Shown here piece by piece: positions 6,089-23,632 of a stretch of 64,000 nucleotides of DNA. Origin of the DNA: Archangium gephyra (GTDB taxonomy: Bacteria > Myxococcota > Myxococcia > Myxococcales > Myxococcaceae); the NCBI RefSeq assembly GCF_001027285.1, contig NZ_CP011509.1:1248501-1312500 (forward strand), written 5' to 3'. The notes beneath the pieces are model-generated. The model saw only the letters and a list, made by a program, of their open reading frames with translations. It ran no database searches and was not told the origin of the DNA. Each line of letters begins with the position of its first letter. Position 1 is the first letter of the stretch. A program made the translations under genes and the position numbers.

Positions 6089-7384
6089 TCACAGCCGCAC
6101 GAGCAGCTCGCGGAGGATGGAGAAGCCCTGCCGGAAGTCCTCCAGCCGGGCCTGCTCGTTGGGCGCGTGGTAGTACGCCATCTCCCCGAAGCCGGTGATC
6201 TGCACGTCACAACCCTGGCGTTGCAGATCCCTCACCAGCGGCAGCGAGCCGGTGAGGGAGAAGGGCGTGGGCGCCACGCCGCGCACCGCCTGCATCGCCT
6301 CGTTCAACGCCTGGAGGCCCGGCGAGTCCAGCCGGCAGGCAATGCCTTCCATGCCACCGCCCTGGAAGCGGAACTCGAGCGAGCCACGCTTGCCCGCCGC
6401 CGTGCGGGTGCGCGGGAAGCCGGGGATGACCTCGTCGCGTTCGAGGCGGGCATCCAGCTCGCGCATGAAGGCGGTCAGCTCCTCGCGCACGGCCTTCAGG
6501 TCGTAGAAGGGCGTGAGGCGGAGGTCCCCACGCACGGTGACGTCGGCGGGAATCTTCGTCTCCTTGGTATTGGAGCCCTCCACCACGGTGGCCTTGAGGC
6601 TGGACGAGGACATGAAGCCGTATTTCTTCTCGTCCTCGGTGGAGGGGCAGCGCGCGTGGAACCAGCGGGCCAACTCCAGCGACGCGGCCATGGCGAGCTC
6701 CAGCGCGTTGACGCAGTTCTGTGGCATCCCCGAGTGCCCACCCACTCCCGACACCTTCAGCTCCCACAGCGAGATGCCGCCCGTGCCCAGCGTGGGGCCG
6801 AAGTTGGCGCTGTCCAGCCAATACACCGGCTGGCCCGCCAGGTCCTTCAACCGCCCCTGCTCGGCCACGTAGCCCAGGCCCAGGCCCGGCAGGTCCGAGG
6901 ACTCCTCGTTGGAGATGAGCACCACCTTGAGGGTCCGGCGCGGGCGCACGCCGCGCTCGGCGAGCTGCGCCAGCAGGTCCGTCAGCACCGCCACGTGGCC
7001 CAGGCAGTCGGTGACGCCACGCCCGTAGAGGACGCCACCGGGACCCTCCCACAGCGCGAAGGGATTGCGCTCCCAGCCCTCGCCCTTCTCGTCCGCGGGG
7101 ACGACGTCGAAGTGCGCGCCCACGAAGCCGAGTGCGCCCTCGCTCGTGCCCTTCACGGTGAGCACCAGACTTGGCCGTGACTCCTTGCCCGGAGCCGCCA
7201 GCGACTCGGCCTGGATGAAGCCGCTCTGGATATGCGGCGCCAGCGTCTCCAGCACGACCTGCGCTGCGAGCCGCTCCTCGGGCACCAGCCCCGCGCCCGG
7301 GTTGTTCTGCAGCCTCGGAGTCAGGGCGATGAGACGCCGGAGCACTTCCAGGAAGCGGTCTTCACGGAGCGAGAGCGTGTTCAT
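6089..7384 (-). CDS. M20-family metallopeptidase / deacylase
   Basis: 431 residues, no signal peptide. Metal-site motifs of the M20 family are visible: FVGAHFDVVP (His and Asp), RGVTDCLGHVA (bridging Asp), SNEESSD (catalytic Glu pair) and a late His in EMAYYHAPNE. The lid domain contains GVGGHSGMPQNCVNALE. Members are aminoacylases, acetylornithine or succinyl-diaminopimelate deacetylases, or dipeptidases; which one cannot be read from sequence. The start codon overlaps the stop of the upstream giant TolB/TPR gene (ATGA), making this the last gene of the 15109-6089 operon, an odd companion for envelope genes. It converges with the SDR gene, leaving 15 nt between. Confidence 0.85.
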   Translation of the reverse strand: MNTLSLREDRFLEVLRRLIALTPRLQNNPGAGLVPEERLAAQVVLETLAPHIQSGFIQAESLAAPGKESRPSLVLTVKGTSEGALGFVGAHFDVVPADEKGEGWERNPFALWEGPGGVLYGRGVTDCLGHVAVLTDLLAQLAERGVRPRRTLKVVLISNEESSDLPGLGLGYVAEQGRLKDLAGQPVYWLDSANFGPTLGTGGISLWELKVSGVGGHSGMPQNCVNALELAMAASLELARWFHARCPSTEDEKKYGFMSSSSLKATVVEGSNTKETKIPADVTVRGDLRLTPFYDLKAVREELTAFMRELDARLERDEVIPGFPRTRTAAGKRGSLEFRFQGGGMEGIACRLDSPGLQALNEAMQAVRGVAPTPFSLTGSLPLVRDLQRQGCDVQITGFGEMAYYHAPNEQARLEDFRQGFSILRELLVRL

Positions 7385-10300
7385 GGGCGCGGATTGGACC
7401 CCAGCCCTCTGGAGAAGTCACCCTGTTCGGGCTGGGCGGGCAGCAGCAGTGCGTCCCGGACTTCCGCTGCCGGCGGGTTCGCGTTGAGCGCCAGATAGAT
7501 CTCGAACCACGCCAGGTAGGCGCGCCAGGAAGGATCCCGCTGGTCGATGAGGGAGCGTTGCGCCTGGCCCAGACGCTTGGGCACGTCGAAAGGCACCCGC
7601 GTGTTCCCATCCGAGTGCAATTGCGCCGCGAACCAGAGCACGTCCAGCTGGCCGGCATCGACCGGTGCGTGGGTGCGATCGATCAGGGTGTCGGCATGCT
7701 CGAGCGCCTCGCCCAACCAGCGGGCCGCCCGCGCCGTGTCCCGGCGATCCACGGCGTTCTCGGCCAGCCGCATCTCCGCCAGCGTCACCGCGCGGATGTC
7801 CTCATCGCGATCCGAATCGGCGAACCTTTCCAGGAACAGCGCGCGCCGCTGCTCGAGTGCGTGGGCGGCGGCGTCCAGGTTCCCGAGCCGGGTCTCCGCA
7901 TTGGCGCGCAGCCCCGCGGCGATGATGCGATAGGAGCGCTGAACGTGCTGGGGCGTGGCGTGTGCCTGTTTCAGCGTGGCTTGCACGGCTGGGTTGTCCA
8001 GGTCGCGATCCACTCTGTCCAGGTCCTCCAAGGCCCGCTGGGGCTGACCCGCCCCCAACTCCGCCGCGCAGCGGGCCAGCCGCACCACCAGCCGGTTGCG
8101 CAGCCCCTCCGCGTCGCTGGGGCCCGCTTCCACGGTGGGCAGCTCGCGGTCGTAGAGCGCCAACGCCCGCTCGAACTGGCCCGCGGCGAGGTTGTAGAGC
8201 GCCGCGCGATCCAGTGCCAGGGTGACGAACCGGGCCAGCTTCGGGGTGGCGTCCACCATGGCCAGGGCCTTGTCCGCCGCCTGCGCTGCCTCTGCCTCGC
8301 GGCCGACGTGCAGGAGCGCCCGGGCACGTGCGAGGGACACCGCCAGCCCCGCCGCGTTGTCCACGTAGGGCAACTTGTCCCGTTGCTCGAGGTAGCCCAG
8401 GGCGATGTGGAAGTTGCCCACCTGCGTGTGCAACAGCCCCAACGCGCCGAGGAGCATCGCCCGGTAGCGGACGTTGTTGCGCACCAGGTCCAGGGCAATC
8501 AAGTAGTGCCGGTTGGCGCGCTCCGCGGCGGCGGGCGCGTGGCCGCGCAGGAAGTCCTCGTGATGAATGGCTCCCGAGAGGGCATGCACCGCGCGCTGGT
8601 TCTTGAGCTCCTGCCACGAGGAGCGCAGCTCCTTCACGGCCGACTCCACCGCCTGGGCGTGGGCACGGTCGTCCTCCAGCTTGGGCAGCTGGCGCGCCGT
8701 GAGGTAGGCCTTCACGAAGTGCGCGAGCGGCCTGGCCATCTTCGTGGAGCTGGTGGTGACTTCCTTCTCCACCACCTCGGGGCTGACGCCGGCACGCAAC
8801 CGCAGGCTCATGGCTTCGACAGCACTCTCCAGGAAGCCCGTCCGTTGCGTCACGAGGTCGAAGTCGGCACGGGCTTCGTCCAGGCGCTGCCTCCCCAACC
8901 GGCGGTAGGCGCGGCCCATCATCGCGCGGCGGAACAACCGTTCGGCCCGGCGGCGCTCCTCGGTGCCGGGCGGGGCGTCGTCGACGTAGACCGTCGCCAA
9001 GGCCTCCAGCACGCCGTCGGCACCGAGGCCCGCCGCGCGCTCGACGGCGTCTTGCACCAGGGCTCGCCGGCGAAGGGGATCCGTCTGCTGACGGTAGAAG
9101 GCGATCAACGCGTCCCGGACGGGGCGGGGAGGCCGCTCTTCGTGCAACGCGTTGACGTGCCGGCCCAGCTCCAGGGCGAACGCATAGGCCGAGCCGGCGG
9201 GCGCCGAGGCGAGTGCCTGGGCCATGGCGGCATCCGCCTCGTCGTAGGGGCGTCCCCGGTACAGGGCGCGGACGGCGGCGCGAGCGAAGTCGAGCTGGTC
9301 GTCGTCCTTGAACACCTTGTTCGTGGAGAGCCGGCGGCCGGCGTCGACCAGGGCCTCGCGATCGTCGAGCTCGCGGTACAGCGCGTCCGCTTGTTCGTAC
9401 CAGGCTTCCAGCACCGCACGCGGTGTGGTGTCGGTCACCTGGGCGGCCTCCAGCTCCTGCCGCGCCAGCGTGAAGTCTCCGGCGGCCTGCGCCAGCTCAC
9501 TGCGCACCACGTGTTGAAAGACGGCGGAAGGAGGACTCGGCGCGGCCGAGGGATCCAACGCGGCCATGCGTTGCCGTTCGGCGTCAGCTGGCTCGCCCAC
9601 CAGGCGGCCGTGTTCGCGCTCCTTCATGGCGCGCCGATGGCCGATGAGGAGCCGCAGGGGCTCCGCCAGTCCCGCGGTGGCGGGATCGTCCACCGAACGC
9701 ATGTGGGCGGCGTAGAACTCCGCCGCATCGAAGTCCTCGAACGCCAGGTGCATCTGGCTCAGGCGCATCATCAGCAGCCGGCGCAGTTTGGGCCGGTCTT
9801 CGCGCAGCAGACGTTGGCGGTAGAGCAGGAGGAGATCCGCGCGTCGGCCGGCCATCTTCAATTCCTCGTTGAGACGAGGAACGTCCCAGGTGCTGAGAAC
9901 CTGGCCATCCAGCGGCAACTGATACACATCCAGCGATTGATCGCGCGAACAGGTCGCGATGAGTGTCGCGGCCGCGGGCGCCGGGTACTCGCAGCTCCAG
10001 GACGCACTGGTGAGCTGGTCCGGACTGGAGGCGGCGGCCAACTGGGGGGCGTCCTCGCGCTCCGCGGCGAAAGGCACCCGGAACAGCACACCCTTGTCGC
10101 TGGCGTCGATCACCCCGTCCACATTGGAGTCGGTGAAGAACTGCACCACGTACAGGGAACGCCCATCGAGCGCGAACACCGGCTGCCCGGTCTGTCCCGG
10201 CAGATTGAGCTCCAGCGGGATGGGGGCCGCACCGGGGCGATCCAGCCGGAGTGCCTCCAGATGGGACGAGGCGCGCGCGGCGAAGCCGGGGCCCACCTGC

Positions 10301-10896
10301 TGCACGGAGCGTTCGACCGGGACGTACACCAGCCAGCGCCCATCGGGTGAGAGGGTGGGACTGGTCAGGTTGCGCTCGAGCAGGGGACTCGCGCTCAACT
10401 CGCGCGCCACCGCGACCCGCGACAATCGCAGATCTCCCTGGATGGTGGCCCGGCTCACCAGCGCGATATGCGAGGCATCCATCCACTCCGCCTGCAGCGC
10501 GCTGGTCTCTTCCTCGAGGCAGCGGCGGCCTTCTCCACCCGGCAGCTTCCGCACACACAGCTGGCCGCTGGCCTGGTTCCGGAACGAGATGTAGAGCAGG
10601 TGTTTGCCATCGGGACTGATCCGCGGCCAGGTCACGTCCGCGCCTTCGTCGAAGAGGCGGCGCTCGCGGCCCTGTTCCACATCCTGGAGGTAGATCTCCG
10701 TCGCGATGTTGCGGTTGGACACGAAGATCAACGTGTTCCCATCGGGCGCCAACTGCCCCAGGAATTGATCTCCCATGCCCACGGTGAGCCGTGAGAGCGT
10801 GCGCAAGCCGCCGTCGTTCTCATCGTCCTGCGCCCAGGCGCTGCCCACCCTGAGCACGGCCAGGAGCAGCAAGCACCGGCCACGGAGCGTCAGCAC
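7381..10896 (-). CDS. TolB-like beta-propeller / TPR protein, exported
   Basis: 1171 residues. A signal peptide (MLTLRGRCLLLLAVLRVGSAWA) is followed by a propeller of PD40/TolB-type blades in residues 45-330: LAPDGNTLIFVSNR, ISPDGKHLLYISFR, LSPDGRWLVYVPV, FALDGRSLYVVQF. The remaining ~800 residues are almost entirely helical with repeated Ala/Leu/Arg pairs (for example AAEFYAAHMRS, QFERALALYDRELP, DAAAHALEQRRALF), that is, a long array of degenerate TPR-like hairpins. It starts at a GTG overlapping the stop of the lipoprotein gene by 7 nt. Propeller plus TPR suggests a periplasmic scaffold; its place after YdbH- and YdbL-like genes suggests a partner of that envelope bridge. Function not established. 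Confidence 0.85.
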   Translation of the reverse strand: MLTLRGRCLLLLAVLRVGSAWAQDDENDGGLRTLSRLTVGMGDQFLGQLAPDGNTLIFVSNRNIATEIYLQDVEQGRERRLFDEGADVTWPRISPDGKHLLYISFRNQASGQLCVRKLPGGEGRRCLEEETSALQAEWMDASHIALVSRATIQGDLRLSRVAVARELSASPLLERNLTSPTLSPDGRWLVYVPVERSVQQVGPGFAARASSHLEALRLDRPGAAPIPLELNLPGQTGQPVFALDGRSLYVVQFFTDSNVDGVIDASDKGVLFRVPFAAEREDAPQLAAASSPDQLTSASWSCEYPAPAAATLIATCSRDQSLDVYQLPLDGQVLSTWDVPRLNEELKMAGRRADLLLLYRQRLLREDRPKLRRLLMMRLSQMHLAFEDFDAAEFYAAHMRSVDDPATAGLAEPLRLLIGHRRAMKEREHGRLVGEPADAERQRMAALDPSAAPSPPSAVFQHVVRSELAQAAGDFTLARQELEAAQVTDTTPRAVLEAWYEQADALYRELDDREALVDAGRRLSTNKVFKDDDQLDFARAAVRALYRGRPYDEADAAMAQALASAPAGSAYAFALELGRHVNALHEERPPRPVRDALIAFYRQQTDPLRRRALVQDAVERAAGLGADGVLEALATVYVDDAPPGTEERRRAERLFRRAMMGRAYRRLGRQRLDEARADFDLVTQRTGFLESAVEAMSLRLRAGVSPEVVEKEVTTSSTKMARPLAHFVKAYLTARQLPKLEDDRAHAQAVESAVKELRSSWQELKNQRAVHALSGAIHHEDFLRGHAPAAAERANRHYLIALDLVRNNVRYRAMLLGALGLLHTQVGNFHIALGYLEQRDKLPYVDNAAGLAVSLARARALLHVGREAEAAQAADKALAMVDATPKLARFVTLALDRAALYNLAAGQFERALALYDRELPTVEAGPSDAEGLRNRLVVRLARCAAELGAGQPQRALEDLDRVDRDLDNPAVQATLKQAHATPQHVQRSYRIIAAGLRANAETRLGNLDAAAHALEQRRALFLERFADSDRDEDIRAVTLAEMRLAENAVDRRDTARAARWLGEALEHADTLIDRTHAPVDAGQLDVLWFAAQLHSDGNTRVPFDVPKRLGQAQRSLIDQRDPSWRAYLAWFEIYLALNANPPAAEVRDALLLPAQPEQGDFSRGLGSNPRP

Positions 10897-11429
10897 TTCT
10901 TTTCTCCCCAGGTGCCGTCATCGGCTTCCACCCAGCCGCCGCAGATGACTCCCTTCGCGTGCACCTGTTGCCAGCTCCGGCGCACCGACTCCTCGGGCAC
11001 GTCGGGGCGGACCGTCCGCATCCACTGCCACAGGTGCACCCGGGCCCGGTTCACCCGCTCCACCAGGGCGGCGTCATCGGCTGACATGCGTCCGGCCTGG
11101 CACTGGCGCCGGGTGTCCACCAGCAGCCCGTCCCGCCCTTCGCCCACGCAGTGGCGCCGCAGCAGCTCGTCGACGCGGTCCGCCTGCGTCCTGCCGAGGT
11201 TCTCGATCAACGGCGTGGGCTGGATGCCCAGATCCTCCAGTTGGTTGGGCGTGAGAGGCACCGGCGTCGGGCTCATGCCCGCGCGAGCGAGACGCCGTTC
11301 CACGTCCTTGAACGAGCCTGAGGCCTGTTCCTCGAGCGCCGTCGCACGATCGACCATGACGATCTCAGGGGCGCGGATGCACCCGGGAAGGGCGAGGGCG
11401 GCGAGCAGCAGCAACCCGCGGCTTTTCAT
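10890..11429 (-). CDS. YdbL-like (DUF1318) lipoprotein
   Basis: 179 residues. Lipoprotein signal MKSRGLLLLAALALPGC, with the lipobox Cys at residue 17. The C-terminal third resembles the YdbL/DUF1318 pattern: LVERVNRARVHLWQ...V..ESVRR....V.AKG..CGGWVEADDGTWGEKK, compared with the E. coli YdbL order of LV..IN.ER, then V.....A...V, then G..V....G.W.RK. The conserved segment IVMVDRATALEEQASGSF follows the lipid anchor, where E. coli has the separate lipoprotein YnbE. Four Cys in the mature part may form disulfides. It overlaps the upstream YdbH-like gene (ATGA) and the downstream propeller gene, so the three are tightly coupled. The family call is moderately sure; it rests on pattern and neighbourhood. 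Confidence 0.7.
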   Translation of the reverse strand: MKSRGLLLLAALALPGCIRAPEIVMVDRATALEEQASGSFKDVERRLARAGMSPTPVPLTPNQLEDLGIQPTPLIENLGRTQADRVDELLRRHCVGEGRDGLLVDTRRQCQAGRMSADDAALVERVNRARVHLWQWMRTVRPDVPEESVRRSWQQVHAKGVICGGWVEADDGTWGEKKC

Positions 11430-14400
11430 GGTGTGGCCTCCGGAGGGGACATGGAGTCGATGGCACGGTCGACGATGGGGCCCATGGGGATGCCCCGGAT
11501 CTCGTCGATGCTGAGGAACCGGGCCAGGCCACCCATGGTGATGCGAATGCGGCCGAAGCCCTGGTTGAAGCTCACCCGCACGTTTTCCGGGTAGCCCACT
11601 CCCAACGCGTAGCGGACGCGGTTGGTGGCGGGATCCGTGTGGCGCGGATCCTCGAGGTCGAGCAGATCGAGCAGATGGCGGTTGCCAATGCGCAGGATCT
11701 CCGCGCGCCCGTTGACGCTGCGATCCTTGCCCGAGATGACCACGGCGGCATTGCCATCGAAGGGCTCGCCCCGGGACGATTTCACGCCGGTGGCCCGCAC
11801 GCGTGCTTCCAGGGTGGAGTGCTTTCCCTGCCAGTTCAACACGCACTGTCCGGTGATGCGCCCACCGCGGACGCCCATCTCCAGCTGACTCATGGAGAAG
11901 ACGTTCTGGTTGATGGACAGGTTGCCGGCCAGGGGCGCGATGGAGATGAGCGGCGTGGTGATGCTGCCCACCGACATGAAGCCGCTGCGCGAGAGCAGGG
12001 GATGTTGGTCGGCGAAACGCAGCATCGAATACGGGTTCATGTCGATGTCGCCCAGCAGCTTCACCTGTCCTTCGGTGAGCTCCACGTTCTCGTTCAACGG
12101 CACGTTGCCATCGAGCGCCTCGAGGGTGACCCCCGACTCGGGCAGCCGCAGGTTCACGTTGTGGAGGAGCACGTTGGACAGGGTTCGGAAGATCACCAGG
12201 TTGGGCGAAGCCACCTGGAAATCGAGCGTGACCTTGCCGCTGCTCTCGACGAGGCCGGGCTTCGTGAGTCTGGACAGGTCCTGCATCAGCTCACCCCGGA
12301 CCGCCAGGCGGCGCCGGTCGTCGCCGAGCTCGAGCCGGCCTTCGGCTTTCAGCTGGGTGCTCGTCCCCGCGTTGGACAGGTGCAGGTCGGGGATGTGGAT
12401 GAGGCCATCGGGCTCACGGCGAGCGGAGAACGACCCTTCCAGGTCCTGGACCGGATAGGGCAGCGCCGGCTTCTGCTCGAGGGAGCGCACCTTCAGGTGT
12501 TGTTTCAGTCCGAGCTCGTCCGCTTCCCACTTCTCGGTGAAGGTGGCGGTGGTGTCGCTGGACACCTCGGCGAACGACAGCCGGCGATCGGGCAGGCCCA
12601 CGTTGAGTTTGTCCACCGTCAGGTGGCTGTGGACGATGCGTCGTGGCCCCTCGGCGCGCGACTCGACCTGCCACTGCAAGGCGGGGAGGTTGATCGACCG
12701 GGCATCCTCTCGCCAGCGGATGCCGCGCGCGTCCACCATCGCCTTTCCCTCGAAGAGGGCGGTCCGCAGCGGGGCGGGGGTCAGGCTCGGGGTTCCATCG
12801 GCGGCGATGTCCGTGAGCACACCGAGCAGCGTTCCATGCAGCTCCACGTTCAGCGCGAGGCGCGAGGGCTCCAGCTCCGCGGGCACCCCGGCCCTGGCCA
12901 GGAGCGGTGTCAGCGCACCCAGGGGCGGAAGGGCGCCCGTGACATCACAGCGAAGTGCGCGGGCCTTCCGGTCGAACTCCAGCGCGGCATCGAGTGCGAG
13001 CTTCAGTCCTGCCTGGCTGGTGAGCCCGAGCCGAAGCGACGGCTTGCGGCGATCGAGGTCCAGCGTCAGCGTCTGGTGCTGGGGACCCGCGTCGTTCTCA
13101 CCCACGCGCAGCCCTTCGAGCTGGAACTCTAGCTCGCCCTTGTGCCGCCAGGCATCTCCTCGCGAACGCATCACGATTGCGGCGTTGCTGGCCGACACGT
13201 CGTCCCATCCCGGCCGCTGCAGGCGCAACTCCGTGCGGTGCTCCAACCGGGGCGAGGAGGAAAAGAGCGCCGCCAGTCTGCCCGTAGAGGCCAGATTCAC
13301 GGCCAGGTTCTTCCAGGGAAAACGAGCGGCGACCGGGTCGGGGATGAAGGGCCGTGCGGCGGCGAGGTCCGGAGTCTGGGCGGACAGGGTGTACGTCACC
13401 TCGTCGCTTCCCTTGGTGGCATCCATCGACGCGTGCATCGTGCCCACGTCGAGCTCCAGACGGGCACGGGCCCGGCTCAGCTGCGGCTCGTCCATCCGGG
13501 GGAACGCCTCCGACACGTCGAGCTTCACGTGCACGGGACCCTTCAGCACTTCGCGTCCATCCGCCGTGACGACCTGGAGGGCCCGCACGGGCAGGTCCGC
13601 TTTCAGTGCGAAGGGCGGCTCACCCGCCAGGGGAGCATGGAGATGAAAGCCCAGACGTTCAGCGTTCGCACGGAGCCCGGAAGCACGGACGTCCAGTGCC
13701 TCCACCATTCCGGACAGGGACGCATCCCCCGCGACCTGGAGGGGCGAGGAGGGGTCTGGCCGCAGCTGGTGACCCTTCAGCTCGCCGGAGGCCTTCGGAA
13801 CACGCAGTGGGGTGGGTCCACTGACCTCGAGCCCCTGGAGCGCGAAGGCGAGTCGAGCAGCCAGCCCCTTCTGGGGATCAGGGGTCGCCACCAGGGAGAC
13901 GCGTCCACCGCCGAGTGCCACCCGAAGTGCGTCCTGGACGAACTGGAGCGCCGCGACGTCGACTTCCAGCCCGAGTTGGCCTTGGGCTCCCAACTGCGGC
14001 ATGGCGCTGAGGGTGAGCTCCTGGGCATCCAGATGCACCTTGCCGCGCTCGATGGAGAACGGACGCAGATCGGCGGGGACCTGTTGCAGCAGCCGTCCGA
14101 GATCGACATCCACCAGGGCACGTGTCACGACGGGTGGAACCTCCGCCGCATCCGGGAGCACCAGCTGGGCCTGCACTTCGGCGCTGTCGGTCAGCTGGGT
14201 GCGGTCCAGCTCGAGGGCGATGTGCCGCTTCTCGCCATCGAACTTCGCGGAGACCGTGCCGTGCAGCAGTGTGCGGACCGTGAAACGAGGATCGAAGGAC
14301 TGCCGCGCGACATCGAGGTCCACCCGCGCACGAGCGGCCGATGCTCCCGCCTCCGCGGAGAGGGTCAGTTCCAACTGAGCCAGGGCGGACGGAATGGCAG

Positions 14401-15109
14401 GGCCTTCACGGTTCAACTCCAGGGGAAGCGGCTTGCCGGTCTGGCCCATGTCCGCGAAGAGCTTCCATCCACCGTCCTGCTGTTTCGCTTCGACTGCGGC
14501 CGCGAGCCCCCGGAGGGACCAGCGATCGAGCACTTCACCGTTCCGGACGCGGACGTAGCTCAACGACACGCCCGACACGTCGACCTTCCCGACGGGAGGC
14601 GCGGAGGCGAGGAGGGCGGCGAGCTGCTGAGAGGCTCCGAGGGGCGCTTCAACGGGCGGCGGCGCGGGGGCGTCCGGCCCCGTCAATCCCGTGAGAGACG
14701 TGGGCCCCGCATCGTCGGCCACCAGGACAAAGGCCACGTCCCGCACCGCCACCCGCTCGACCCGGGTGGGCCCGCGCAGCAGGGCGCCGGGCGACCATTG
14801 CGCCTCCAGCGTGCCGACGCGCAGCAGCTCGGGCGCGATGCTTTGAAACGGCGGCGGGGTCCGCACCACCAGCCCTTCCAGTCGCAGACCCGAGAGCACG
14901 GAGACCCGGGCCGTCTGGTAGTCCAGCCGCAGGCCCGTAGCCGCTTCCACCCGGGAGACGATGCGCTGTTTCAACCAGGGGCGGTCGAGGTTGTGCAGCG
15001 CAGCCACCGCCGCGACCAGTACCAGCGCGAGGGTCGCGACGAGAACCAGGAGCACGCCTGCGATGATTCGAGCCAACCGTTGGCGAGGTCGTGCTCCGGG
15101 GGATTCCAT
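11426..15109 (-). CDS. AsmA/YdbH-like envelope bridge protein
   Basis: 1227 residues. One N-terminal membrane helix (residues 13-37) leads directly into an AsmA-type start, LDRPWLKQRIVSRVEAATG, then RVSVLSGLRLEGLVV. The remainder is a very long run of beta-rich repeats with amphipathic strands, the hallmark of AsmA-like/TamB/YhdP/YdbH proteins that form a hydrophobic groove across the periplasm. The C-terminus (INQNVFSMSQLEMGVRGG, then HLLDLLDLEDPRHTDPA) resembles the YdbH end. E. coli YdbH works with the lipoprotein YnbE and with YdbL in phospholipid transport to the outer membrane; here a YdbL-like lipoprotein gene overlaps the stop. It heads a four-gene operon. The superfamily is sure, the YdbH branch likely. 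Confidence 0.85.
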   Translation of the reverse strand: MESPGARPRQRLARIIAGVLLVLVATLALVLVAAVAALHNLDRPWLKQRIVSRVEAATGLRLDYQTARVSVLSGLRLEGLVVRTPPPFQSIAPELLRVGTLEAQWSPGALLRGPTRVERVAVRDVAFVLVADDAGPTSLTGLTGPDAPAPPPVEAPLGASQQLAALLASAPPVGKVDVSGVSLSYVRVRNGEVLDRWSLRGLAAAVEAKQQDGGWKLFADMGQTGKPLPLELNREGPAIPSALAQLELTLSAEAGASAARARVDLDVARQSFDPRFTVRTLLHGTVSAKFDGEKRHIALELDRTQLTDSAEVQAQLVLPDAAEVPPVVTRALVDVDLGRLLQQVPADLRPFSIERGKVHLDAQELTLSAMPQLGAQGQLGLEVDVAALQFVQDALRVALGGGRVSLVATPDPQKGLAARLAFALQGLEVSGPTPLRVPKASGELKGHQLRPDPSSPLQVAGDASLSGMVEALDVRASGLRANAERLGFHLHAPLAGEPPFALKADLPVRALQVVTADGREVLKGPVHVKLDVSEAFPRMDEPQLSRARARLELDVGTMHASMDATKGSDEVTYTLSAQTPDLAAARPFIPDPVAARFPWKNLAVNLASTGRLAALFSSSPRLEHRTELRLQRPGWDDVSASNAAIVMRSRGDAWRHKGELEFQLEGLRVGENDAGPQHQTLTLDLDRRKPSLRLGLTSQAGLKLALDAALEFDRKARALRCDVTGALPPLGALTPLLARAGVPAELEPSRLALNVELHGTLLGVLTDIAADGTPSLTPAPLRTALFEGKAMVDARGIRWREDARSINLPALQWQVESRAEGPRRIVHSHLTVDKLNVGLPDRRLSFAEVSSDTTATFTEKWEADELGLKQHLKVRSLEQKPALPYPVQDLEGSFSARREPDGLIHIPDLHLSNAGTSTQLKAEGRLELGDDRRRLAVRGELMQDLSRLTKPGLVESSGKVTLDFQVASPNLVIFRTLSNVLLHNVNLRLPESGVTLEALDGNVPLNENVELTEGQVKLLGDIDMNPYSMLRFADQHPLLSRSGFMSVGSITTPLISIAPLAGNLSINQNVFSMSQLEMGVRGGRITGQCVLNWQGKHSTLEARVRATGVKSSRGEPFDGNAAVVISGKDRSVNGRAEILRIGNRHLLDLLDLEDPRHTDPATNRVRYALGVGYPENVRVSFNQGFGRIRITMGGLARFLSIDEIRGIPMGPIVDRAIDSMSPPEATP

Positions 15110-15768: not shown

Positions 15769-16013
15769 CCCTCGTCGCACGGAAATGGCCGGGGCGCCAT
15801 GACGTCATCACCGCCTCGGCCCATCACCCCCCCCGAGAGGGTGTCCAAGAATTCCCCGTTCGAGCTTACCCAGTATCGTGACGCCCGACTGAGGGCACGC
15901 GTGTTTTCGTCATGGTGGAGGCGCGCGGAGTGATAGTGATACGGCTCGAGCGGCTGTGAGGACCAGGCGCGCGTGGCGCCGTGCCTCCTACCAGAGCCGC
16001 CAGAGGGGGAAAC

Positions 16014-17357
16014 ATGCCGGGATCGAGCGGGCTCGCAGGTCTGAGGGCGGTGCTGTGTGTTGTGTGGGTGGGGGCGTGGGGCTGTGCCACGGGCAACCAC
16101 GCGGCCGCATCCCCCAGCACACTCTCAACAGCCTGCGAGCAGGGGACTGCCCACAGTTGTTTCCTTCTCGGCTTGCGCTACGAGGACGGCACCGGAGTGG
16201 CGAAGGACGAGCGCCGGGCCGCCGCATTGTATGAGCAGGCCTGCACCGGTGGCGTGGCGGAGGGGTGCTACAACCTCGGCTTGCTCTACATGAATGGCTG
16301 GGGAGTGGCGAAGGAGCAACGCCGCGCCACCGAGCTGTTCGAGCAGGCCTGCACCGGTGGCGTGGCACGGGGATGCCACAACCTCGGCGTGCGCTACGAG
16401 CAGGGCCGCGAAGTGCCCAGGGACGAGCGCCGGGCCGCCGCATTGTATGAGCAGGCCTGCACCGGTGGCGTGGTGGAGGGGTGCTTCAGCCTCGGCGTGC
16501 TCCACAACGATGGGCGCGGAGTGACGAAGGACGAGCGCCGCGCCGCCACGCTGTTCGAGCAGTCCTGCAGCGGCGGAGATGCCAATGGATGCTCCAACCT
16601 CGGCGTGCTCCACGCCGAGGGCCGCGGAGTGGCGAAGGACGAGCGCCGCGCCGCCGAACTGTATGAGCGGGCCTGCACCGGTGGACAGGCGATGGCGTGC
16701 TTCAACCTCGGCGCGCTCTACCGGGATGGGCTCGGAGTGGCGAAGGACGAGCGCCGGGCCGCCGCGCTGTATGAGCAGGCCTGCACGGGAGGAGATGCCG
16801 GGGGGTGCCACAGCCTGGGCTGGCGCTATGCGGAGGGCCGGGGCGTGGAGAAGGACGAGCACCGCGCCGCCGCGCTGTATGAGCAGGCCTGCGCGGGAGG
16901 AGAGGCCAGGGGGTGCTCCGACCTCGGCTTGCTCTACCTGCGAGGCCGGGGCGTGGAGAAGGACGAGCGCCGCGCCGTCACGCTGGTGGAGCAGGCCTGC
17001 TCCCTGGGACTGGCACAGGCGTGCTTCAACCTCGGCATGTTCTATCTTGAGGGTCTGGGGGTAGCGAAGGACGAGCGCCGCGCGGCCGCGCTGTTAGAGC
17101 AGGCCTGTACTGGCGGGGATGGCAAGGCGTGCGCCAACCTCGGCGTGCTCTACCTGCGAGGCCTGGGCGTGGAAAAGGATGAGAGCCGCGCCGCTGCGTT
17201 CTATACGCAGGCCTGCGACAGTGAAGAGGCCCAGGCGTGTGCGAACCTCGGCATGCTCTACAAGGCGGGCGTGGGAGTTCCCAAGGACGAGCGCCGCGCC
17301 GCCGCCCTCCTGGACAAGGCTTGCCGAGCCGGTAACTCCAAGGCCTGCGCTCGCTGA
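16014..17357 (+). CDS. Cys-rich Sel1-repeat lipoprotein (Hcp-like)
   Basis: 447 residues from the ATG at 16014, preceded by AGGGGGA. A lipoprotein-type signal ends at WGC (residue 24). The rest is a half repeat plus about 11 Sel1-like repeats of exactly 36 residues, consensus GVAKDERRAAALYEQACTGG.A.GC.NLG.LY..GR. Each unit carries two Cys (EQAC and GC) placed as in Helicobacter cysteine-rich proteins, where each alpha-alpha hairpin is locked by a disulfide. This suits a secreted, oxidised solenoid that binds proteins. The gene has its own upstream region of about 245 bp and no clear operon partner. Confidence 0.9.
   Translation: MPGSSGLAGLRAVLCVVWVGAWGCATGNHAAASPSTLSTACEQGTAHSCFLLGLRYEDGTGVAKDERRAAALYEQACTGGVAEGCYNLGLLYMNGWGVAKEQRRATELFEQACTGGVARGCHNLGVRYEQGREVPRDERRAAALYEQACTGGVVEGCFSLGVLHNDGRGVTKDERRAATLFEQSCSGGDANGCSNLGVLHAEGRGVAKDERRAAELYERACTGGQAMACFNLGALYRDGLGVAKDERRAAALYEQACTGGDAGGCHSLGWRYAEGRGVEKDEHRAAALYEQACAGGEARGCSDLGLLYLRGRGVEKDERRAVTLVEQACSLGLAQACFNLGMFYLEGLGVAKDERRAAALLEQACTGGDGKACANLGVLYLRGLGVEKDESRAAAFYTQACDSEEAQACANLGMLYKAGVGVPKDERRAAALLDKACRAGNSKACAR
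16197..17356 (+). repeat. 108-bp tandem DNA repeat inside the Sel1 gene
   Basis: The coding sequence repeats every 108 bp, matching the 36-residue protein unit; for example GTGGCG(A)AGGA recurs at 16197 and 16305. Neighbouring units are similar at the DNA level (GACGAGCGCCG(C/G)GCCGCC recurs almost unchanged), so unit gain or loss by recombination is plausible. Sequence diverges more in the last three units. Confidence 0.85.
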
Positions 17358-21654: not shown

Positions 21655-23397
21655 TCAGGGCAGGGCGACCTTCAAGGGAGCGCAGTTGCCCGTGCCCCCC
21701 TGGTCCGTGCCTTTCTGGTAGATGACGCCGTCTCCCCAACCCCAGACCGTGCCATCCAGGAGGAAGACCTGGGCGTACCGTTCGCCGATGCTCACCCCCG
21801 ACACACCCGTGAGGCCACTGATCGGAGCCGGCAGGGCGCCGTAGTTCACCGTCGGAGACGTGCAGTTGGGTTGGAAGTTGAAGTCTCCCCAGCTCCAGGC
21901 CGTGCCCTGGGTTCGCTCGAGCGCCACCGCATGGGCCGGGCCCGCGAAGACGGAGAAGGTCCCCGTGCTCCACAGGTACGTCCGCGCCGGCGTCGGATGG
22001 TGGCTCCCGAGGGCATCACCCAGCGGTCCAAAGCCCCAGCCCCACAGCTCCCGCGTGCCGCGAATCGCCAGGGAGAAGGAGTCGCTCGCGGCGATGGAGG
22101 TCACTCCCGTCATCGCCGCCACCTTGATGGGAACGGAGCTCGCAATGGTCGTCCCGTTGCCCAGGCACCCCATGGAGTTGTCACCCCAGGTCCATACCGT
22201 GCCGTCGTTCCTGAGCACGAGCGAGTGGTTCCTGCCCGCGGCGAGCGCCGTCACGCCCGTCAGGGTCCCCACCCGCACCGGGCGGGTCCGGTTGATGCGC
22301 GTGCCGTCGCCGAGCTGCCCGCGGGAGTTGTCCCCCCAGGCCCAGACCGTGCCGTCACTCCTGAGCGCCAGGACATGGCTCCTGCCCGCGGCGAGCGCCG
22401 TCACGCTCGTCAGGCCAGACACCTGGACGGGGTTCGCGCTCGTGGTGGTGGTCCCGTTGCCGAGCACTCCCGTGCTGTTGCCACCCCACGCCCACACGGT
22501 CCCATCCGTGCGCAGCGCCAGGGAGGAGTCGCTCGTCGCATGCACCGACTTCACGCCGGAGAGGAGCGTGGCCTGGACGGGAAGCGTGCTCACATACATC
22601 GAGGCGCCCGCGCCCAGCTGCGAGGAGTAGTTGTCACCCCAGCCCCAGAGGGTCCCGTCCGCGCGCAAGGCGAGCGAGTGCATGCTCCCCGACGCGACGC
22701 TGGTGGCCTTGGCGCCGCTCACGTACGGCGGGGCCGGCGTGAAGACGAGATCATCGCGATCATCGTAGCCCCCGAGGGTGCAAGGACTCGCGGTTCCGCC
22801 CCGGCGCAGCGCGGCGCGGACGGCCTGCACCTTCGAGCCCGCCGGAACCGTGAAGGTGGCCTTGAGGGTCTGTAGCGAGCGGGCGGCGCCCGTTGGCGTC
22901 AGGGTGGTGAGCAACGTCCAGGAAGGGCTGGTCACGGACGAGGAGGCGTAGAGGTCCAGGAAGTTGGCTTGCGGCGTCACGGGCATCTGGACCGTGACTT
23001 CGATGCTCGCCGGCCGGCCCTGGGTCAACGGCGTCTGGTCCTCGGTGAAGACGCGCACCTTGCTGATCCACTCGTCGTCCATATACGAGCCCAGCTCGCC
23101 ATCCAGGCACGTCCCGCCCAGGGTGCTGGGCGCGTAGTACTCGGTGATGACCTGACCGCGGCCATCTAGATACTTGTACGGGTCGCAGTTCCAGGTCAGG
23201 CCGTCGCACTTGAAGGCCTTCAGGGTGGAGTCGTAGGCCGCGGAGATGGTGTCGGTGATCGGCGCCCGGGCCACGCCGGGCAGCTCCTCGCCCACGCCCG
23301 GAGCCGCGGGGTCCGGCGCGCCACAGGCCGCCAGGAGGAGGGTTCCCAGCAGCCCGGCCCACTTCTTCTTCACAATGCCATTCCCAATCGACTGCAT
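21655..23397 (-). CDS. RCC1-repeat lipoprotein with jelly-roll-like domain
   Basis: 580 residues. Lipoprotein signal with lipobox LLAAC near residue 25. Residues ~45-220 form a beta domain (AAYDSTLKAFKC ... GGTCLDGELGSYMDDEW ... NFLDLYASSSV ... YDDRDDLVF) that is also present in the divergent neighbour at 23646. Residues ~225-580 hold about seven RCC1-type propeller blades such as ALAAGRSHVLALRSDGTVWAWGDNSRGQLGDGT. RCC1 propellers of myxobacteria are usually surface or secreted binding proteins. The ATG at 23397 gives the signal peptide a basic N-region (IVKKKW). It is followed by the P450 gene. Ligand unknown. Confidence 0.88.
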   Translation of the reverse strand: MQSIGNGIVKKKWAGLLGTLLLAACGAPDPAAPGVGEELPGVARAPITDTISAAYDSTLKAFKCDGLTWNCDPYKYLDGRGQVITEYYAPSTLGGTCLDGELGSYMDDEWISKVRVFTEDQTPLTQGRPASIEVTVQMPVTPQANFLDLYASSSVTSPSWTLLTTLTPTGAARSLQTLKATFTVPAGSKVQAVRAALRRGGTASPCTLGGYDDRDDLVFTPAPPYVSGAKATSVASGSMHSLALRADGTLWGWGDNYSSQLGAGASMYVSTLPVQATLLSGVKSVHATSDSSLALRTDGTVWAWGGNSTGVLGNGTTTTSANPVQVSGLTSVTALAAGRSHVLALRSDGTVWAWGDNSRGQLGDGTRINRTRPVRVGTLTGVTALAAGRNHSLVLRNDGTVWTWGDNSMGCLGNGTTIASSVPIKVAAMTGVTSIAASDSFSLAIRGTRELWGWGFGPLGDALGSHHPTPARTYLWSTGTFSVFAGPAHAVALERTQGTAWSWGDFNFQPNCTSPTVNYGALPAPISGLTGVSGVSIGERYAQVFLLDGTVWGWGDGVIYQKGTDQGGTGNCAPLKVALP

Positions 23398-23632
23398 GTG
23401 CCGTCCTCGGTGATACGGCGGGCGTTCCAGGAACAACCCGCCATCGTGTTGAGATGGGAAACAACGGGAAGTCCGACGGGATATTCATCCACCGCGGAGT
23501 TCTGGCCCGTGCCTCCCGGGCACGCTGATTTTCCGAGAACCCGGGAAATGTCAGTCCCCTCCCTATAACCGTCACGCCCGGGACCGGGTGTTGGCACCGC
23601 GACCTCATGGCCGCGGCCAACGACGACAACGA

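Follow-up and report, generated by a model that had tools for sequence, protein, structure and literature searches.

A conserved three-gene unit of Myxococcota encoding an AsmA-like protein, a DUF1318 lipoprotein and an exported propeller-TPR protein, a candidate envelope system

Related envelope systems and the Archangium locus

The route that phospholipids take to the outer membrane has long been an open problem, and for AsmA-family conduits most partners are, as stated for E. coli, unknown (PMC12977461). In that organism YdbH works with the outer-membrane lipoprotein YnbE (PMC12977461, PMC11784454), and a plasmid carrying ydbH-ynbE-ydbL suppresses a defect of cells without TamB and YhdP (PMC8593681). 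EpaF/PA4735 of P. aeruginosa is one of several additional AsmA-like proteins outside the TamB/YhdP/YdbH set that contribute to outer-membrane integrity (PMC10900882); unlike the unit described below, it is not known to have a dedicated lipoprotein or propeller partner. A combination of TPR and TolB-like propeller is found in PorE/PG1058 of type IX secretion, an outer-membrane-associated periplasmic protein proposed to serve as scaffold of an envelope machine (PMC5053529).

The window, i.e., the whole stretch of 64,000 nucleotides analyzed here, is part of the 12,489,432-bp single-contig genome of Archangium gephyra; Archangium violaceum Cb vi76 is the closest named relative identified. Reading of the open reading frames recovers all four predicted minus-strand genes, with consecutive overlaps of 4, 7, and 4 nt, in agreement with the 4-7 nt of the original prediction. 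Rfam gave no match within the window. The features of the locus are as follows.

11426..15109, minus strand: AsmA-superfamily protein with predicted inner-membrane anchor, 1227 aa, first gene of the unit (PF05170, 4.6e-8; orthologues in 70 Myxococcota genomes)
14996..15073, minus strand: putative N-terminal transmembrane anchor of the AsmA-like protein, residues ~13-38, after basic residues (read by eye from the translation)
11429..12109, minus strand: C-terminal ~230 residues of the AsmA-like protein, predicted outer-membrane-proximal docking end (identity, invariant residues)
10890..11429, minus strand: DUF1318 (YdbL-like) lipoprotein, 179 aa, second gene of the unit (PF07027, hhalign to YdbL, lipobox Cys17)
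11316..11369, minus strand: post-lipobox signature PEIVxVDRxTxLExQxxG, lipoprotein residues 21-38 (near-invariant in alignment A2)
10899..11183, minus strand: DUF1318 domain, lipoprotein residues 83-177 (Pfam, hhalign)
7381..10896, minus strand: exported TolB-type propeller and TPR-like helical protein, 1171 aa, third gene of the unit (PD40, TolB, orthologues)
10831..10896, minus strand: Sec-type signal peptide of the propeller-TPR protein, residues 1-22 (AWA/Q; same pattern in the orthologues)
9892..10788, minus strand: beta-propeller region, residues ~37-335 (PD40/TolB matches; beta structure in a low-confidence model)
10096..10131, minus strand: EF-hand-like acidic loop DSNVDGVIDASD, residues 256-267, candidate Ca2+ site (invariant Asp/Gly positions)
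7447..9882, minus strand: helical-hairpin (TPR-like) region, residues ~339-1150 (low-confidence model; TPR matches in long-form homologues)
6089..7384, minus strand: M20 metallopeptidase (DapE/ArgE-like), 431 aa, neighbor outside the conserved unit (Pfam 3e-24)

Like ydbH-ynbE-ydbL, the locus is a tight operon in which an AsmA-family protein anchored in the inner membrane is encoded together with a lipoprotein and a DUF1318 domain. It differs from the E. coli operon in several respects. The AsmA-like protein is longer than YdbH (1227 vs 879 aa) and does not match the YdbH family, and there is no separate YnbE. Whereas E. coli YdbL is a separate periplasmic protein, here the YdbL domain, with four conserved Cys, sits in the lipid-anchored chain of the lipoprotein. 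In addition, the operon has an extra, fixed propeller-TPR gene.

Conservation and loss of the three-gene unit

The conserved unit comprises three genes, for the AsmA-like protein, the DUF1318 lipoprotein and the propeller-TPR protein, which keep a constant order in the loci sampled, while their flanking genes vary between genera. With start codons taken as those nearest to the window's start, the AsmA-like and lipoprotein genes overlap by exactly 4 nt in 59 of 62 loci, and the lipoprotein and propeller-TPR genes by exactly 7 nt in 56 of 62. As these first two overlaps are exact across a set that includes loci at ~35% protein identity, the gene arrangement does not reflect chance.

The synteny check in Myxococcota thus bears out the predicted order for these three genes and not for the M20 peptidase, which had been counted as a fourth operon member. 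The M20 gene does overlap its upstream neighbor by 4 nt, an overlap created by a C-terminal extension of the propeller-TPR protein that is peculiar to this genome (the closest relatives have 1154-1160 aa), but it follows the propeller-TPR gene in only 1 of the 32 relatives examined, A. violaceum. Its product (Pfam 3e-24) starts without a signal peptide and, by sequence, would be cytosolic. On distribution and lack of a signal peptide it is rejected as a member of the module, and the gene is best read as a neighbor.

Searches with each protein, which covered Myxococcota, place all three genes in their full form in the same 70 of 195 genomes, with none holding only one or two of them; the three genome lists were compared by eye, the lipoprotein being counted by a strong match and the propeller-TPR protein by full length. 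A further AsmA-like match outside the 70, in G009, is of the divergent type of family f11 described below. Presence and absence within one phylum are confounded by descent, and here joint losses within genera help: four genera with the unit each include a genome (G064, G093, G099, and G126) from which all three genes are missing. G064, which belongs to the same genus as the window, still carries a 200-bp, 92%-identical scrap of the 3' end of the propeller-TPR gene (L196:8465-8668). This scrap is direct evidence of secondary loss, indicating that the unit is dispensable.

The three proteins and the long form with a CHAT domain

Residues 19-194 of the AsmA-like protein match the Pfam AsmA family (PF05170, 4.6e-8) above the cut-off, and among 24 diverse members of this group AsmA is matched in 19, DUF748 (PF05359) in 15, YhdP in one and YdbH in none. 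Judged by sequence, the 1227-residue protein is a member of the AsmA superfamily, so the superfamily part of the predicted YdbH likeness holds. The YdbH branch, however, is supported by none of the tests run, i.e., Pfam in the own genome, in the 24 members and in the 195 genomes, and hhalign. The YdbH profile PF11739, which itself does match in E. coli and Caulobacter, has no match in the own genome nor in any of the 24 module members, and among the PF11739 matches listed for the 195 genomes (up to E = 1), none lies at a module locus. In hhalign comparisons, for which the comparators were small (one to four sequences each), the probability is 0.2-0.8% against the enterobacterial YdbH alignment and 28-53% for the N-terminal part against E. 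coli AsmA. The weak PF11739 matches elsewhere in the phylum were considered as the YdbH of the module and rejected, as they lie away from it; the two that were read (L099, L111) are AsmA-type proteins whose tail is helical and charged.

The C-terminal ~230 residues of the AsmA-like protein are its best conserved part, with 40-50% identity to distant orthologues vs 20-32% elsewhere, and its invariant residues cluster there. Such high conservation fits a docking end. Sequence searches for solved structures of the AsmA-like protein and of E. coli YdbH found none. Since the structure predictions are unusable (AlphaFold2 model from two sequences, mean pLDDT 27.8), we infer the conduit fold solely from the N-terminal AsmA match. 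The own genome encodes two further AsmA-matching proteins. In G061, the AsmA-like gene (L051:6557-10242) is apparently frameshifted, with two frames meeting near 8353, and in G146 it reportedly contains an in-frame TGA (L033:459-3980) and lies 5.9 kb from the lipoprotein gene.

The 179-aa lipoprotein begins with a lipobox, LPGC, whose Cys17 is invariant across the family. The signature PEIVxVDRxTxLExQxxG just past it is near-invariant in the family alignment A2 and recognizable in distant relatives, and this N-terminus is the best conserved end of the protein. The DUF1318 domain with its four conserved Cys is C-terminal. Although the window's own match to the Pfam model (6.7e-5, 23.8 bits) lies ~3 bits under the cut-off of 27, PF07027 is present in 19 of 20 lipoprotein members, and matches above the cut-off occur in 29 Myxococcota genomes, mostly in orthologues of the module. 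In hhalign, the lipoprotein aligns with E. coli-type YdbL at an E-value of 1.5e-5, including the GE..DG.L, N.AR, and DG.W positions. These results confirm the predicted YdbL domain. The companion idea that the lipoprotein combines this domain with YnbE-type anchoring found no such backing: hhalign of YnbE against the lipoprotein N-terminus aligns signal peptides only, without PITINMNVKIEHEI strand support, and the YnbE-type family is absent from the Pfam matches of the 20 members. A loose likeness to YnbE directly after the lipoprotein Cys (P-x-I-x-V) is a mere lead. A literature search on DUF1318 found no relevant paper.

The third protein consists of a signal peptide followed by TolB-like propeller blades and then by helical hairpins up to the C-terminus. 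The blades match PD40 (5.7e-17) and the TolB model (6.7e-14, 51.6 bits vs a cut-off of 343); Pfam reports PD40 and a trace of DPPIV_N only, with no match to the TolB N-domain or to CHAT in the window's protein. An exported TolB-propeller and TPR protein is what the original prediction had proposed, and it is conserved with its neighbors in the same 70 genomes. An AlphaFold2 model from two sequences (mean pLDDT 38.5), usable for secondary structure only, displays beta structure in the propeller region and continuous helices after it. The protein resembles TolB of the Tol-Pal system in its blades and in being exported, but it falls far below the family cut-off and has a long helical C-terminal region. 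Compared with PorE/PG1058, the order of the domains is reversed; PorE is much smaller and has CRD and OmpA_C-like domains and a predicted lipoprotein character, none of which is present in the window's form.

Within the propeller, the acidic loop DSNVDGVIDASD has EF-hand spacing, and alignment A3 (24 members) shows no variation at its main Asp and Gly positions. The full pattern recurs in 52 of 63 short-form sequences, a set that includes truncated ones; among long forms it occurs in 7 of 12. The loop can be regarded as a candidate calcium site.

The long forms are found in more distant relatives, which include other classes of the phylum. In families f15, f26-f29, and f31, the order of AsmA-like, DUF1318 lipoprotein and propeller genes is kept and the third gene encodes ~2,500-2,900 residues (the f26 frame is cut by a contig end), with overlapping or abutting gene ends where the starts can be placed. 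The f17 locus showed no AsmA-like match; its lipoprotein gene adjoins the one for the long form. Over its first ~1,100 residues the long form aligns with the window's propeller-TPR protein; extra TPRs follow, and then a C-terminal CHAT domain (PF12770), detected in 10 of the 11 long forms with testable C-termini (6e-33 to 1.9e-64). Each of the 11 aligned long forms, among them one without a Pfam match, retains the CHAT His and Cys. By eye, a lipobox-like segment stands at the N-terminus of most long forms, whereas all inspected short forms have there either a plain signal peptide or no lipobox, and in an unrooted tree short and long forms make up two fully supported groups. Long forms share with TPR-CHAT proteases the terminal TPRs and CHAT domain; unlike them, they open with a propeller preceded by an export or lipidation signal, and they lie beside AsmA-like and DUF1318 genes. 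In the long forms, PADLOC matches were limited to a generic TPR and one hit across the CHAT region. Both the CHAT-bearing long form and the acidic calcium-type loop are new relative to the original prediction. The own genome (G000) contains 22 CHAT-domain matches, while the operon's protein has none.

In f11, the long-form gene is located elsewhere than the AsmA-like and lipoprotein pair, right after a gene with an MCP signaling domain, indicating that the propeller part is separable from the other two. Two f11 genomes additionally hold the short three-gene unit. The f11 AsmA-like and lipoprotein genes are convergent, tail to tail (L134, L135, L136, L140, L142, L189), and the propeller-TPR-CHAT gene is directly downstream of, and overlaps, a methyl-accepting receptor frame, mostly with HAMP (L190:3755-14306, L191, L193, L194).

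Possible roles of the unit

We hypothesize, at about even confidence, that the unit encodes a three-part envelope system of Myxococcota, with an AsmA-type conduit, a DUF1318 lipoprotein as its dock and the propeller-TPR protein as scaffold or regulator. The AsmA-like protein would be held in the inner membrane by its single N-terminal helix and span the periplasm, with lipid as the presumed cargo by analogy with the E. coli locus. The lipoprotein, presumably tethered to the outer membrane through its lipid, would dock on the conserved C-terminus of the AsmA-like protein and may also perform the docking job of YnbE. As a periplasmic scaffold or regulator, the propeller-TPR protein would contact this bridge in a way comparable to TolB and Pal. 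A seemingly lipid-anchored CHAT-protease long form would take its place in distant relatives.

A bolder version of this scheme is that an AsmA-type bridge is regulated by a dedicated propeller-TPR protein, which is an envelope-anchored periplasmic CHAT protease in several lineages and a soluble, protease-less protein in Myxococcales. We consider this version speculative and rather doubtful; if true, it would mean that an intermembrane lipid bridge is under protease control and that a caspase-like protease is exported. The propeller-TPR protein is a concrete candidate partner of an AsmA-family conduit, inherited and lost with the AsmA-like protein and the YdbL-type lipoprotein across the phylum, and the long form would connect the system with an extracytoplasmic caspase-like protease. 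As close relatives of the window genome include culturable and genetically tractable myxobacteria, the unit is directly testable.

The AsmA-like protein might instead move or assemble proteins rather than lipids, the lipoprotein or the propeller-TPR protein being a dedicated client delivered to the surface. Members of the AsmA family with roles in protein export have been published, namely GspN with surface lipoproteins (PMC12802150) and TAM (PMC11014939), TamB being cited for some outer-membrane proteins, and short-form propeller proteins with a plain signal peptide could go further out. The sole NCBIfam match of the AsmA-like protein is to GspN, yet it is weak (E 0.047) and far under the cut-off (13 vs 50 bits). 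The YdbL domain links the operon to the E. coli lipid-transport locus, and no type II secretion genes were recognized in the annotated flanks of the window, so that protein export appears unlikely. A role in envelope sensing or conflict, where the propeller-TPR(-CHAT) protein senses a signal, the long form cleaves a target, and the AsmA-like protein and lipoprotein anchor or trigger it, would suit the conserved His and Cys of the long-form CHAT domain, the position of the f11 long-form gene behind a methyl-accepting receptor gene and the patchy loss of a dispensable module. We find it improbable, given that the window's form has no protease domain, that PADLOC assigns none of the three window proteins to a defence family and that a conduit of 1,200 residues would be an odd anchor.

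That the three genes are merely co-transcribed, with unrelated functions, is already disfavored and seems very remote. Overlapping gene pairs are common in bacteria, which does account for the M20 gene. Joint occurrence and joint loss of the three genes, together with overlaps fixed across several families amid changing flanks, argue against it and speak for the three-part envelope system, our preferred reading. That reading also draws on the conserved ends of the AsmA-like protein and the lipoprotein, on the recurrence of the gene order with the long form and on the f11 loci, where these two genes stay neighbors away from the propeller gene.

Other features of the window include a candidate lipoprotein containing 11 Sel1 repeats (15981-17357, plus strand), encoded immediately upstream of the operon and divergently from it, and a candidate exported RCC1-repeat protein (21655-23436, minus strand) adjoining a cytochrome P450 (20350-21597). 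Between 42001 and 44000, the AT skew is strong (-0.20) relative to the remainder of the window.
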